Shown one piece after another: positions 16,709-41,677 of a stretch of 42,015 bases of DNA (position 1 is the first letter of the stretch; every line of letters starts with the position of its first letter). The stretch covers positions 1-42,015 of the IMG/VR virus record IMGVR_UViG_3300014720_000062; one strand, 5' to 3'. The DNA comes from a virus. A model generated the notes under the pieces. It made no database searches. It saw only the letters and a list, made by a program, of their open reading frames with translations, and had not been told where the DNA came from. Both the position numbers and the translations under genes were made by a program.

Positions 16709-19021
16709 TCAGCCCGCGCTGTCCTCCTCGACCATGCGATGGGCTTTCCATTCGCCGGTGGTCGGGTAGATCTGCAGCCAGTGGCGGTCGTCGGCGGCGA
16801 TCTCCGCGCCGGCGTCGGCCTCTTCCTTCAAGAGCTTCCAGCGCGCGTAGCGCTCGTGCGGCTGTTCCTCAGGCAGCGCCGGCGCGTCGAACGCGGCGAC
16901 GAAGGCGGCGTGACGTTCCTGCTCCTCGGGCGTGGCCTCCGGGATCTCGCGGCGGCCCTGCGAGCGGACGGCGCGCGCCGCCTCCTCGAGGGCGGGCGTC
17001 AGCCAGGTCACGTTCGAGCTGGGGGCGGCGGGCGGCGGCGCTTCGCCGATCATGCGGGCCGCCACGGCGTGGACGTCGGCCTGGCGCGCGAAGCGGCGCA
17101 GCTCGGCCTTCCCGGCCTTCACGATCGCGTCCTGCTCGGCGCGCACCCGCATCGCCATCTCGGCGCGGTCGAGGCCCTTCAGCTCGGCGTTGACGGCGAT
17201 GCCGACGAAGGCCCAGGGATCGCTGTCGGTGTAGACCCAGACCTGGCCGAGATCGTCGGGATCGAGCCGGACCTGCACGCGCTCGCCGACATCCATGCCG
17301 GCGCAGACATAGTCGATGCCCTCGACCGAGACGCCCTTGCGCGTGATCGTGCGGACGTGGTCGCGCGCCGGCGGCATCAGCAGCATGCCGATCGCCGCCG
17401 GGTCGGCGAATTTCTGCGGATGGGCCGCCACGCCCTCGACCCACACGTCGTGCGGCGTGCGGCCGTCGAGCCCGGCATGCGGCGAGACGTCGTAGTCGTT
17501 GGCGATCCAGCCGGCCAGGCGGGCCTGCAGCTCCTCGCCGGTAAGGTCGACGGCGAACACCTTCTCGTCGCTCTCGCCCAGGCGCTGGGCGAAGGAACGC
17601 CGCGCCTCGATCTCCTTGCGGGCCGCCACGTCGGGCCCGACGTAGCCCGGCTGGTAGGGCATGAAGCCGTGCTGCACGGTGCCGATGGCGCGCTCGACGA
17701 ACGGCTTCTTCTCCGGCGAGTAGGGCGGCGTCGGCTGCAGCACGATCTCGAGCTGCGTCATGGCGAGGACGAAGTGCTTCGACGTGAAGTCGGAGCCGTT
17801 GTCGGTGACCAGCACCTCGGGCACGCCCCACGTGGCGATCGCGCGGGCGACCAGGAGCAGCGAGGCCGCGGTGCGCGGCGTGCGCGAGACCAGCGCCATC
17901 ATGCGGCGCGAGAAGACGTCGACGACGACGTAGATCGAATGGCGGCCGTCGAGACAGAGCACGTCGGCCGGCGAGGCGTCGATCTGCCAGCGCTGGTTCG
18001 GCCGCTCGATGCCGCCCGAGGCGTTGCCGAGCGCGAACCGGAACTTGGAGCGGTAGCCGTCGGGATCGTTGAGCGCCGACAGCACGGCGGCGTTCTGCGC
18101 GTCGGCCTTCCACTTCGCGAGGAAGCGCGCGATCGCGCCCTGCGACGGCAGCGCCATCATGAGCCCGAGGCGGTCCGGCGCGCCCTGGGGGAACTTGTGC
18201 GCGACCAGCTTGGCGAGGCCCTGGGCGCTGATCGCCGGCTGGCGGACGTGGCAGCCCAGCACGAACTCGGCCAGCTCGGCCGACTGGTCGAACACGGACT
18301 TTCGACCGCAGTTCGAATATCGGTCGACCAGCTCGTGGGCGCGGCCGGCGGCGCGCGCGGCGAGCCAGCGCTGAAGCGTGCGGCGGCTGAGCCTGGCGAG
18401 CAGCGGCCGCGCCCACTCCGGCAGCACGACGTGCCCGGCCTTCACCGCCTGCACGAAGGGATCGAGCGACGCGCGATCGGAGCGTCCGCCCCGGAAGCGG
18501 TCGAACTCGGCGAGCAGAACCTGACGGGCGCTCAGCCGCTCGGCCTGCCGCGCCTTGAGAGTGGAAGCGACGGTGGCGGGGATGGGGGCGGGCACGGCCG
18601 CGCGATTGGCGGGGCTGGCGGCAGAACGATCGGCGGGACGGTGCGTCGCCGCGATGACGCGCCGGCGCAGGATCTCGCCGCGCACGTCGGCCGGCAGGGC
18701 GGAGAGGGCGAACTCGCGGCCGCCGCCGCGGCCCTGCCGCTCGCGGCTCGACCAGCGCTGCCGCGTCGCCAGCTTGGAGATCTGTTCGCGCCGCTGCGGC
18801 AGCCCGTCGAGCCTGAGCGCGGCCAGCTCGGCCGCCGAAAAAAAGTCGGCCCCGACATCGACCATCTCGCCTCGGTGATCGCCGGGGGCGGGTACGCGGT
18901 CGGTGTCGGGGCCAGTCGATCCGATCGCCGAGGGGATGGCTGGCGATCGGGAGGCTGCGTCGCCGGAGAGGGAGGTCTTCGGCGCGGGCTGCAGCGAACG
19001 GGTTGAAAGTCGGCGGGCCAT
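16709..19021 (-). CDS. MuA-like DDE transposase
   Basis: A 770-residue transposase. The N-terminal winged-helix enhancer-binding domain spans about 58-115 (FSAAELAALRLDGLPQRREQ). End-binding helical domains follow (about 160-310). The RNase H catalytic core shows D348 (WQIDAS), D407 (VTDNGSDF) and E443 (KPFVERAIG), a DD35E set. The C-terminal part (from about 560) fits the MuB/ClpX-contact region. It cuts and joins the phage ends. I start at the ATG at 19021, which overlaps the ner stop (TGATG). About 100 residues longer than Mu MuA. Confidence 0.95.
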   Translation of the reverse strand: MARRLSTRSLQPAPKTSLSGDAASRSPAIPSAIGSTGPDTDRVPAPGDHRGEMVDVGADFFSAAELAALRLDGLPQRREQISKLATRQRWSSRERQGRGGGREFALSALPADVRGEILRRRVIAATHRPADRSAASPANRAAVPAPIPATVASTLKARQAERLSARQVLLAEFDRFRGGRSDRASLDPFVQAVKAGHVVLPEWARPLLARLSRRTLQRWLAARAAGRAHELVDRYSNCGRKSVFDQSAELAEFVLGCHVRQPAISAQGLAKLVAHKFPQGAPDRLGLMMALPSQGAIARFLAKWKADAQNAAVLSALNDPDGYRSKFRFALGNASGGIERPNQRWQIDASPADVLCLDGRHSIYVVVDVFSRRMMALVSRTPRTAASLLLVARAIATWGVPEVLVTDNGSDFTSKHFVLAMTQLEIVLQPTPPYSPEKKPFVERAIGTVQHGFMPYQPGYVGPDVAARKEIEARRSFAQRLGESDEKVFAVDLTGEELQARLAGWIANDYDVSPHAGLDGRTPHDVWVEGVAAHPQKFADPAAIGMLLMPPARDHVRTITRKGVSVEGIDYVCAGMDVGERVQVRLDPDDLGQVWVYTDSDPWAFVGIAVNAELKGLDRAEMAMRVRAEQDAIVKAGKAELRRFARQADVHAVAARMIGEAPPPAAPSSNVTWLTPALEEAARAVRSQGRREIPEATPEEQERHAAFVAAFDAPALPEEQPHERYARWKLLKEEADAGAEIAADDRHWLQIYPTTGEWKAHRMVEEDSAG

Positions 19022-19353
19022 CACGCGGCCCGCTCGTGGGGATTGGTGCGGGAAGCGGGGATAGTCTCAGAGGGGCCGCAATCGTTCCTTCTGGACTCCT
19101 TCTTGCCGCCGCGTTTAATCGGCACGTCTTGGCGGTCGTAGCGGGGGGGCCAGATCACATGGGCCGGAACGCCGATCGTGCGGGCGATGATCCGTTCGAC
19201 CTTGGGCCAACGCTTCACCAGGCAGACGCTCACGGCCGACGGCGAGAGATTGTGGCGTATCGACAGCCCTCGTTGCGTGAAGCCCTTGCGCTTCAACGCG
19301 GCGACGATGTCGGCCTTGTGCATTCCCTTCGGAGGTTTGGACCCGCTTTGCAT
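19021..19353 (-). CDS. ner: Ner-like transcriptional repressor
   Basis: A 110-residue protein with the Ner/Nlp signature: MHKADIVAALKRKGFTQRGL, then LSPSAVSVCLVKRWPKVERIIARTIGV and PPRYDR. In Mu, Ner turns down the early and repressor promoters. It is longer than Mu Ner (75) because of a basic C-terminal tail. It is the first gene of the leftward early operon. A start at Met11 is possible. Confidence 0.88.
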   Translation of the reverse strand: MQSGSKPPKGMHKADIVAALKRKGFTQRGLSIRHNLSPSAVSVCLVKRWPKVERIIARTIGVPAHVIWPPRYDRQDVPIKRGGKKESRRNDCGPSETIPASRTNPHERAA

Positions 19354-38938: not shown

Positions 38939-39415
38939 ATGCGGCGCAAAGGCGAGACGAGGATTTCGACGAAGCAACGGGCCTATCCCTTTGGCGCGGA
39001 GCTGCAGGTGCGCTTCCATCGGCGACCGGGCGAATGCGAGCGCGAGCACGCCGCCGCGGCGGCGATCTCGGCCGGCGACTACCTCACCGCCCAGGCGAAG
39101 CTCGACAGTGCGGTGCGCTACCTCTTCCGATCGGGCGAGCAGGCGCATGCCATGCAGATCTGGCTGGAGGCGCATGCGACGCCCTACGATCCGTGGGAGG
39201 AGCGGCGGCAGAGCGCGGAGGCGTCGCGCCGGCATCTCAAGGAGTGCGCCGACATGGTGACGGCGGCGGTCGCGACGGGGCTGCCCGCCCGGCTGCGGCG
39301 GGCCGAGCAGCTCGGCTTCGACATGGTCGAGGCGCTGCGGATGCTGGAGCCGAGGTTCGACACGCCGCGGGCGCAATGGTGCATCGGCATGCTGAACCAC
39401 TATGGCGCGTTCTAG
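38939..39415 (+). CDS. Hypothetical protein
   Basis: A 158-residue helical protein (AAISAGDYLTAQAKLDSAVRYLF). The ATG at 38939 lacks a clear ribosome site. It meets the SRAP gene tail to tail with both stops in the same CTAG. No family recognised. Confidence 0.5.
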   Translation: MRRKGETRISTKQRAYPFGAELQVRFHRRPGECEREHAAAAAISAGDYLTAQAKLDSAVRYLFRSGEQAHAMQIWLEAHATPYDPWEERRQSAEASRRHLKECADMVTAAVATGLPARLRRAEQLGFDMVEALRMLEPRFDTPRAQWCIGMLNHYGAF

Positions 39416-40074
39416 GCCGCCTTCTTCTCCTTCGGCAGCAACACGATCGCCTGGTCGTCGGCCGGCTTCTGCAGCTCCAGCGCCTCCTCGAGCGTGCCCG
39501 TGAGCCAGCGGTCGACGTCCGCCGGCGTCATCAGCAGGACGGGCATCGCCTTGTTGTGGATCGGCTCGACGATGCCGTTCGGCTCGGTGGTCAGGAACGA
39601 GAAGAGCTTGTGCCGGCCGACGTTCGGCTTGGCCTTGGTGCCGCGGTCGCCCTCCCACTCGCGCCAGATGCCAGCGAAGAAGAAGGGCTCGCCGTCGGCG
39701 CGCTTGAACCAGCGGAACTGCACGGGCTTCGCCGTATGGCGGTCGGGCTCGGAGAAGGCGGTCGCCGGCACGATGCAGCGCTGCTCGGGCTTCTTGAGCC
39801 AGGGCTTCCAGTAGCTCGACGCGGTGTTGCGGATGTTGGTCACGGGCGCCTTGCCGCCCACGAAGGGCGGCGGCGGGAAGCCCCAGCGCATCGTCTCGAC
39901 GACGCGCTTGCCGTCCCGCACCACGACGACGGCCGCCGGGTAGTTCGGGTAGATGTTGGTGGCGTCGTTCTGGCCGCCGACCACCTCGGCCCATTCCTTC
40001 CCGACCAGCTTGTAGTGCCGCATCAGGCCGGCGACCTCATCGCGAGAGAGGCGCATGGTGTAGAGGTTGCACAT
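39412..40074 (-). CDS. SRAP family protein (YedK/HMCES-like)
   Basis: A 220-residue SOS response-associated peptidase. Cys2 (MCNLY) is the residue that forms a covalent thiazolidine with abasic sites. Other family residues are present: Asn in RNTAS, Glu in PATAFSEPD, and His in EPIHNKAMPVLL. It protects abasic sites in single-stranded DNA, which could occur during phage replication. It faces against the late operon, in a two-gene minus-strand unit. Confidence 0.9.
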   Translation of the reverse strand: MCNLYTMRLSRDEVAGLMRHYKLVGKEWAEVVGGQNDATNIYPNYPAAVVVVRDGKRVVETMRWGFPPPPFVGGKAPVTNIRNTASSYWKPWLKKPEQRCIVPATAFSEPDRHTAKPVQFRWFKRADGEPFFFAGIWREWEGDRGTKAKPNVGRHKLFSFLTTEPNGIVEPIHNKAMPVLLMTPADVDRWLTGTLEEALELQKPADDQAIVLLPKEKKAA

Positions 40075-40528: not shown

Positions 40529-40723
40529 ATGCTGTCGACTCTGGAGGAGCGGCGCTGCAGATGCCGCCGTTTGTTGTTTCGAGGCATCGCCTCCGATATA
40601 GAGATCAAGTGCCCCCGCTGCGGGGCGCTCAACCGCTTCAGGGACCCGATCCCCGAACAGGAACGCCGGCGAGCGTCGAAGGAGACTTCGGATGCTCAGC
40701 CGATCGACCGATCAGACCGTTGA
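40529..40723 (+). CDS. com: Com-like zinc finger translational regulator
   Basis: A 64-residue protein with the Com signature RRCRCRRLLFRG...IEIKCPRCGALN. In Mu, Com binds the mom message and opens a hairpin that hides the ribosome site. Here the first knuckle has C-x-C, the second C-x2-C. The next gene, 17 bp downstream, is a cytosine-5 DNA methyltransferase, not mom. Confidence 0.85.
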   Translation: MLSTLEERRCRCRRLLFRGIASDIEIKCPRCGALNRFRDPIPEQERRRASKETSDAQPIDRSDR

Positions 40724-40740
40724 ACCGAGGGCGTCGTGAG

Positions 40741-41640
40741 ATGCCGGCGTCCTTCCGTGGGCTGGCGCTCTGCGCCGGCGCCGGCGGCCTCGAGCTCGGG
40801 CTCGCGATCGCCCGGCCGGACTACCGCACCGTCGCCTATGTCGAACGCGCGCCGGCGGCGATCGCCGTCCTCAGGGCGCGCATGCGCGATCGCTGCCTGC
40901 ACCGCGCGCCGGTGTTCGACGATCTCCGCACCTTCGATGGCCGTCGCTGGCGCGGCCGCGTCGACGTCCTCACGGCGGGCTACCCCTGCCAGCCGTTCTC
41001 GACGAACGGCAGCCGGCGCGGCTTCGACGATCCGCGCAACCTCTGGCCTCACGTCGCGCGGATCGTCGGCCAGGCGCGGCCGGCCGAGCTGCTCCTCGAG
41101 AACGTCGCGGCGCACCTCACCTTCGGCTTTCCCTTGGTCGCCCGGGACCTTCGCCGGCTGGGCTACCGATTTGCAGCGGGGGTCTTTTCGGCGGGCGAGG
41201 TGGGCGCTGCACACGAGCGCAAGCGGCTCTTCGTTCTGGCCCACGCCGACCGTCTACGGCCACGCCGGCCGCATCCACACGCTGCGCGCGAGAGGGCGTC
41301 ACGTCTGGCGGCCGGCCGCGCGGATGGGCACGCAGGTCACCCTGCCGATGGCGGCGGCGATCTGGTCGTACCGGATTTCGCGCCGGGACCTCGGGACTTC
41401 CAGGCCTGGCGCCGGCTGCTCGCTGCTCGCCCGGAGCTTGAACCCACGCTTGGGCGAGATGCTCCAGGGATGGCCGGGTGGATGGACCGACAGCGGCTCG
41501 CCGGTAACGGGGTTTGCAGCCTGGCGGCGGCGTATGCGTACACGTCTCTCAGCGCTGTGCTCGACGGCACCCCCGCCCCGTGGCTGGCGGGCCATCCCCT
41601 CGGTCGCGCCGTGGCCCGACCTGGTCAGGGGCCGGCATGA
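40741..41640 (+). CDS. Cytosine-5 DNA methyltransferase
   Basis: A 299-residue C5 methyltransferase. Motif I FRGLALCAGAGGLELG (5-20), motif IV YPCQPFS with Cys83, motif VI LENV (119-122), motif VIII in AAHERKR (156-162) and motif X RLAGNGV (252-258). The target recognition part between VIII and X is short (about 90 residues). It probably protects phage DNA from host restriction. From about 41234 the +1 frame also looks coding, and third-base GC falls, see the next entry and findings. Placed under Com control by position. Confidence 0.85.
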   Translation: MPASFRGLALCAGAGGLELGLAIARPDYRTVAYVERAPAAIAVLRARMRDRCLHRAPVFDDLRTFDGRRWRGRVDVLTAGYPCQPFSTNGSRRGFDDPRNLWPHVARIVGQARPAELLLENVAAHLTFGFPLVARDLRRLGYRFAAGVFSAGEVGAAHERKRLFVLAHADRLRPRRPHPHAARERASRLAAGRADGHAGHPADGGGDLVVPDFAPGPRDFQAWRRLLAARPELEPTLGRDAPGMAGWMDRQRLAGNGVCSLAAAYAYTSLSAVLDGTPAPWLAGHPLGRAVARPGQGPA

Positions 41641-41677
41641 CCGCGAGCTGGCCCAGATGCCTGTCGATCGGCGTTGA
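41234..41677 (+). other. Second reading frame over the methyltransferase 3' half
   Basis: In the +1 frame the DNA encodes SSFWPTPTVYG, LPMAAAIWSYRISRRD and SLNPRLGEMLQGWPGGWTD then SPVTGFAAWRRRMRTRLSAL, closely resembling the WPTPT...LNP.F.E.LMGWP.GWTD proteins I know next to or fused with phage C5 methyltransferases. There is no start codon before the WPTP segment; ATGs at 41324 and 41348 exist. It may be a true overlapping gene, a frameshift product, or the remains of a frame change. Confidence 0.5.

Follow-up and report, generated by a model that had tools for sequence, protein, structure and literature searches.

Evidence for a second conserved gene overlapping the C5 cytosine methyltransferase gene of a Mu-like phage and its relatives

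Introduction

Can a single stretch of phage DNA encode two proteins of nearly equal length in different frames of the same strand? The question is raised by the virus record analysed here (IMG/VR record IMGVR_UViG_3300014720_000062), a 42,015-base sequence of a Mu-like transposable phage that we refer to as the window. Its gene for a C5 cytosine methyltransferase (MTase) can also be read in the +1 frame, and the initial annotation had proposed dual coding in the 3′ half of the gene, reached by ribosomal shifting or through an earlier change of frame. To our knowledge, nearly full-length overlapping genes on the same strand have rarely been documented outside tiny viruses. The overlap of open frames described here is concealed in an enzyme gene that is among the most common in phages, and recurs in many hosts, at hundreds of loci of phages and prophages. 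Neither overlapping genes nor ambiguous starts are new as such; for this MTase/+1 pair we found no description in the open-access papers searched, although prior notice in subscription journals is possible. The name 'Mte8-like' occurs in open-access papers as a gene label only.

Results and discussion

The methyltransferase and its neighbours

The window contains a transposase gene on the minus strand (16712..19024) together with genes for a CI-like repressor, terminase, portal, head and tail proteins. Near the right end of the Mu-like genome are a Com-like zinc-ribbon gene (40529..40723, plus strand) and, directly downstream, the MTase gene (40741..41640, plus strand). The product of the former matched the Com zinc-ribbon profile PF10122 above cutoff (E=6e-12) and also phrog_6417 (E=3e-11). 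A minus-strand ORF at 39412-40074, whose product starts MCNLYTMRLSRDEV, matched phrog_1599, a family with the function label 'unknown'; we take this ORF to resemble SRAP/YedK proteins.

Frame 0 of the MTase gene specifies 299 amino acids from an ATG start to a TGA stop. The translation matched PF00145 (E=5.8e-31), phrog_363 (E=1.6e-52 over residues 4-269) and, in the PDB, M.HhaI (E=6e-12). It carries the motifs CAGAGG (I), GYPCQPF (IV), LENV (VI), ERKRLFVLA (VIII) and GNGVCSLAAAYA (X), and thus includes the catalytic PCQ and ENV motifs of C5 MTases. The motif X segment aligned to phrog_363 up to residue 269, and the GN at residues 255-256 is kept in 57/57 sequences. A canonical motif IX (RLQGFPD-like) was sought in the frame-0 translation and not found, and the Pfam match stops at residue 174; canonical examples (L197-L200) carry motif IX in frame. 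Little sequence separates motifs VIII and X in the frame-0 chain. With motifs I, IV, VI, VIII and X, frame 0 is an ordinary member of the phage C5 methyltransferases (phrog_363, PF00145), but it differs from them in being compact, in having no recognisable canonical motif IX and in being overlaid by a second conserved frame.

A +1 frame open across the whole gene

Between 40724 and 41674, across the whole MTase gene, the +1 frame has no stop. Within it, an ORF of 313 amino acids (40736..41677, plus strand) starts at a GTG, ends at a TGA (41675..41677) and includes WPTPT and LNPRLGEMLQGWPGGWTDSGSPVTGFAAWRRRMRTRLSAL. A distance of 5 nt separates its GTG at 40736 from the MTase ATG downstream at 40741; the two form an overlapping start pair GTGAGATG (40736..40743, plus strand), preceded by the SD-like sequence CGAGGG and written GUGAGAUG in our survey of paired starts.

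The region to which dual coding had been confined (41234..41677) is the 3′ part of this full-gene ORF. The initial annotation had also held that the WPTP segment of the +1 frame lacks a start, so that a shift or an old frame change is needed; this was wrong, as the full-length ORF has its own start beside that of the MTase. No frameshift is needed, because relatives have paired starts and one group of them has an internal +1 start. Both translations given earlier were reproduced exactly. The third-base GC counts made by hand also agreed with ours: 71% in frame 0 and 82% in +1 over 41341..41640, and 95% in the first 20 codons. The corresponding value for the phage structural genes of the window is 91-96%.

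Both frames are open in relatives

For the window gene alone, synonymous shuffling predicts 2.1 stops in the +1 frame, with P(0) = 0.05, and the lack of stops is only slightly unusual. A single GC-rich gene of this kind means little, and relatives were therefore collected. They were grouped by best-matching reference as W-type (like the window, and mostly alphaproteobacterial), S-type (like Salmonella phage ABTNLsp11242, L088), K-type (like E. coli phage fKuEco01, L092) and X-type (like Xanthomonas phage PhiXhv-28, L093).

Set (a) consisted of 80 IMG/VR loci picked by the MTase protein alone, with 57 non-redundant W-type members including the window; the +1 core was stop-free in 56 of these 57. 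Set (b) consisted of 80 loci from bacterial genomes, again picked by the MTase protein alone, mostly alphaproteobacterial and with a few genomes also present in IMG/VR; the +1 core was open in 78. In the reverse direction, set (c) comprised 99 loci picked by the +1 protein of S-type or K-type phages. The MTase frame was open in 98 of them, and no orphan +1 gene without an MTase was found among the 99. Both frames are open and jointly conserved in phages and prophages of Alphaproteobacteria, Gammaproteobacteria, Cyanobacteria and others. Database searches with the two translations thus returned homologues for each frame, and neither frame is regularly broken by stops in homologous genes.

The GC content of the dual-coded genes ranges from 0.46 to 0.74. 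Synonymous shuffling of each gene gave a mean expectation of 2.4 stops (GC >= 0.65) to 4.7 stops (GC < 0.52), and none was observed, although this comparison is biased for sets selected on the +1 protein and for segments delimited by the open run; sets (a) and (b) therefore carry the argument. The 202 neighbouring ORFs, each 150 codons or longer, were picked mechanically and some may be in the wrong frame; none was open in +1, and stops occurred at 8.8 per 300 codons. In S and K group genes, 9-31 stops interrupt the +2 frame. Four canonical phage C5 MTases (GC 0.39-0.44) had 14-21 stops in +1, and dual coding is therefore a property of a subset of the MTase family.

Selection on both frames

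In this arrangement the third base of each frame-0 codon is the second base of a +1 codon, and frame-0 codon position 1 is the wobble (silent) position of +1. We compared codon choice at conserved MTase residues with that expected from codon usage. The same codon was used in 56.5% of cases against 34.8% expected; the corresponding figures for controls were 53.2% and 43.4%. The excess peaked at MTase residues 31-75, 166-180 and 226-255, and at residues 166-180 same-codon identity was 2.34 times that expected. Individual codons were close to invariant, as at Val45 (GTG in 49/49), Ala151 (GCG in 53/54) and Ala167 (GCC in 50/54). MTase codons 242-245 read MGWP in +1, and in the W set Asp242 was GAT in 46/46, Gly243 was GGG in 56/56 (a codon with 17% usage in the gene) and Ala245 was GCC in 56/56. 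In the window, two segments stand out as doubly constrained. One is the junction at 41234..41254 (plus strand), FVLAHAD in frame 0 and FWPTPT in +1, marked by same-codon identity and codon invariance; the other is a 3′ segment at 41433..41517 (plus strand), LEPTLGRDAPGMAGWMDRQRLAGNGV in frame 0 and LNPRLGEMLQGWPGGWTDSGSPVTGF in +1, with a same-codon ratio of 2.2-2.3.

Mean residue identity of the +1 translations was 0.422, compared with 0.260 in shuffles. Each third of the gene lay at least 40 SD above the null, in Z-scores that ignore shared ancestry, for which the neighbouring genes served as the control. Conservation beyond the synonymous null was equally strong at +1 residues 1-75 and at the 3′ end, contrary to any confinement to the 3′ half. 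Between close pairs, substitutions fell at codon positions 1, 2 and 3 in proportions of 40/15/45%, against 21/13/66% in neighbouring genes. This shift to position 1 is expected because position 1 is silent in +1.

The +1 frame is thus open beyond the expectation from codon bias, and shows synonymous constraint, located where +1 residues are conserved, and a shifted substitution spectrum. Judged by these comparisons, the MTase protein alone does not account for the conservation of +1 residues, and purifying selection keeps the +1 family. The dual coding first proposed for the window is strongly supported, by homologues of both frames as well as by synonymous constraint, and the locus is very probably a true and widespread overlapping gene pair in which two protein-coding frames are selected.

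Paired starts and a possible role of Com

The start codons of the two frames were compared across the groups. In W-type genes both frames start at NUGUG in 42 of 61 loci, the +1 NUG being followed 2 nt later by the MTase GUG. S-type genes have the opposite order, with NUGAAUG in 29 of 34 loci, where the MTase NUG is followed 4 nt later by the +1 AUG. At MTase starts of the GTGGCnCT type, the two preceding bases were [AGT]T in 31/34 phage and 25/38 genome loci, compared with about 19% at random, and an SD-like site was present in most of these loci. Two start codons within a few nucleotides behind one SD site were therefore found in most W and S loci and in the window, but not in K-type genes, in which paired starts are absent and +1 starts internally, some 73-88 nt in.

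Reporter and toeprinting experiments in E. coli have shown that AUGUG and GUGUG can initiate both frames (Kohl et al. 2022, PMC9841429), and the same authors cite the AUGGAUG overlap of Thermus rnpA-rpmH. Our loci resemble these cases in having one Shine-Dalgarno site and starts 2 or 4 nt apart that open two frames (PMC9841429). They differ in that both products are full-length and overlap over 230-460 codons, that the arrangement occurs at hundreds of phage and prophage loci with an enzyme as one partner, and that initiation is deduced from sequence. Ribosomes initiating ambiguously at the paired starts are likely to make both proteins from a single mRNA, possibly under the control of Com in the Com-linked group.

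Of 162 W-type loci, 80 had a Com-like ORF in the 600 nt upstream, as against none of 104 S and K loci (redundant counts). Com of phage Mu activates the modification gene mom by binding mom mRNA and exposing the mom translation start (PMC6483171). The window resembles the Mu com-mom operon in that a Com-like zinc-ribbon gene immediately precedes a DNA-modification gene close to a Mu-like right end; in place of mom, however, it has a C5 methyltransferase gene and the partner that overlaps it (PMC6483171). Given this shared layout, control of the paired start by the Com-like protein is plausible from its position.

The +1 protein family

Searches of eight +1 proteins against Pfam and NCBIfam profiles gave no match above chance, and neither a PF00145 match nor the PCQ and ENV catalytic motifs of a C5 MTase were present in +1. 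The +1 proteins did match phrog_1008, phrog_27243, phrog_26627 and phrog_31772, the first two being matched by the window protein. These families are labelled 'DNA methyltransferase', as is phrog_1008, or unknown function, although the matching +1 proteins have no C5 MTase profile match. By sequence, the label of phrog_1008 is probably a mislabel that stems from the overlapping gene.

Annotation of the pair in GenBank varies. Both frames are annotated in Paenibacillus phage Lily (gp62/63, 'internal gene'), E. coli phage fKuEco01 (KE1_032/033) and Xanthomonas phage PhiXhv-28; only the +1 frame in Synechococcus JY39, Vibrio 1.236.O and Pseudomonas phPA-G; and only the MTase in Salmonella ABTNLsp11242. 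In PP438429, MG592600 and PP083311 (L086, L089 and L094), the +1 frame alone is kept, as a hypothetical protein, and the real MTase is missed. An overlap of two genes would explain both a 'DNA methyltransferase' database family without methylase motifs and the flipping of annotation between frames, and gene-finder rules that forbid overlapping calls would keep missing one of the two proteins.

The conserved features of the +1 proteins are WPTPT and LNPxFxExLMGWPxGWT. AlphaFold2 models of two +1 families had mean pLDDT values of 47.5 and 56.3, with residues 231-290 of the window protein reaching 71-85. Foldseek comparison of these models with the PDB gave no fold match, and sequence searches of the PDB with +1 profiles gave chance-like matches only. 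One of these, a weak match of the MS2 coat protein (E=4e-4) to profile positions 66-95 of alignment A2, is most likely due to chance because the matched stretch is dictated by MTase motif residues.

Relation to actinophage methyltransferases

A 17-residue segment, LNPxFxEWMMGWPxGW, lies inside the MTase chain of actinophages (L204-L228), about 24 aa before motif X and at the place of motif IX in C5 MTases. In other actinophages (L229-L256) and in Kampy gp78/gp77 (L091), this segment and motif X are in a second ORF, in +1. Catalytic and recognition motifs are thus distributed in actinophages in a way that fits two chains. Across L204-L256, L091 and L095, the PTP...GWP segment is found in the MTase frame or in a split +1 ORF, and the loci can be arranged as a series from single-chain through split to dual-coded.

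As the segment occupies the motif IX place in actinophage MTase chains, and the dual-coded frame 0 is without a canonical motif IX, we tentatively suggest that the +1 protein may work with the MTase, as a recognition or stabilising partner. The suggestion comes from one short motif, and the AlphaFold2 and Foldseek results gave it no support. A further reading, which we regard as rather doubtful, is that one segment with one ribosome-binding site and two starts would yield the catalytic and the recognition or partner subunits of the same DNA-modifying enzyme, in a fixed ratio and inseparable by recombination.

M.AquI is a two-subunit methyltransferase. In M.AquI and Kampy gp78/gp77, catalytic motifs and a C-terminal recognition segment lie in different overlapping frames, a layout that our loci may share; here, however, the frames overlap almost entirely, and the catalytic one retains motif X. 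Hidden HNH endonucleases of the ShiLan type are also out-of-frame proteins within a phage methylase gene, but those are inserted homing elements, whereas here there is no insertion and no HNH family match, and the methylase itself is overlapped (PMC11855218).

Explanation of the locus

We propose that two genes, almost the same in length, overlap on one strand of this stretch of DNA, frame 0 encoding a compact phage C5 cytosine methyltransferase and +1 a second conserved protein family. The two start codons, which overlap or lie a few nucleotides apart and mostly behind a common SD-like site, would allow both proteins to be made from one mRNA by ambiguous initiation, and in the Com-linked group the upstream zinc-ribbon protein might control their output as Mu Com does that of mom. 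The +1 chain carries the PTP...LNPxFxEWMMGWPxGW segment, which in actinophage MTases is placed between these two motifs, VIII and X, either within the single chain or on another ORF that overlaps the first.

The strongest challenge to two coding frames would be a shadow or relic, in which +1 stays open through GC-rich codon usage and its conservation mirrors the MTase protein. Much +1 sequence does follow MTase residues, for example LAHAD to WPTPT, and the probability of 0.05 for the window gene alone would suit such a reading. Yet the open +1 frame persists at GC 0.46-0.55 while neighbouring genes are never open, synonymous third positions are fixed to rare codons, and substitutions are shifted to position 1. 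A GC-rich codon shadow is ruled out by the low-GC members, the neighbouring-gene controls and the canonical methyltransferases with their 14-21 +1 stops at GC 0.39-0.44, and we consider a shadow or relic of any kind extremely improbable. An RNA element was also considered as the cause; an Rfam search gave no match, and such an element would not account for frame-specific stop avoidance. Alternatively, the +1 part might be expressed solely at the end of a ribosomal frameshift product that joins MTase motifs I-VIII to the WPTP...GWP segment. Actinophage MTases join these parts (L204-L228) or split them between two ORFs, of which the second is in +1 (L229-L256, Kampy), and the FVLAHAD/WPTPT junction is among the most constrained sites. 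A product of this kind needs neither starts of its own nor a conserved 5′ half, but the 5′ half of +1 is open and conserved, and its starts are kept beside the MTase start or internally (K-type). It is therefore rejected as the sole explanation, and appears improbable.

A further alternative shares the dual coding and differs on function only: the +1 protein could be an independent accessory, for instance in anti-restriction or host takeover, overprinted on the MTase. Its lack of detectable homology to enzymes, and the low predicted structure with a mostly unstructured N-terminal half that is typical of overprinted proteins, are in keeping with such a role, whereas the occurrence of the C-terminal motif inside actinophage MTase chains, and the fact that the two frames were never found apart, point away from it. 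We regard an independent accessory as a distinct possibility that falls somewhat short of even. With two overlapping genes as the preferred reading, phage epigenetics would gain an uncharacterised protein family, and ambiguous translation initiation and overprinting could be studied at this locus in a natural setting.

Loss and variation of the two frames

A few relatives carried a stop in one frame. In L344 and L361, both derived from genomes, there is one stop inside +1 while the MTase is intact, indicating that loss of +1 occurs, if rarely. In the S-type locus L100 (1497-2228), a single nonsense codon at MTase codon 92 accompanies an intact +1 frame, and represents a real loss or a sequence error. 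In the alignment of S-type +1 proteins (A1), the region between WPTP and LNP is hypervariable; cassettes resembling WPTPxAS vary in number there, altering both frames together.
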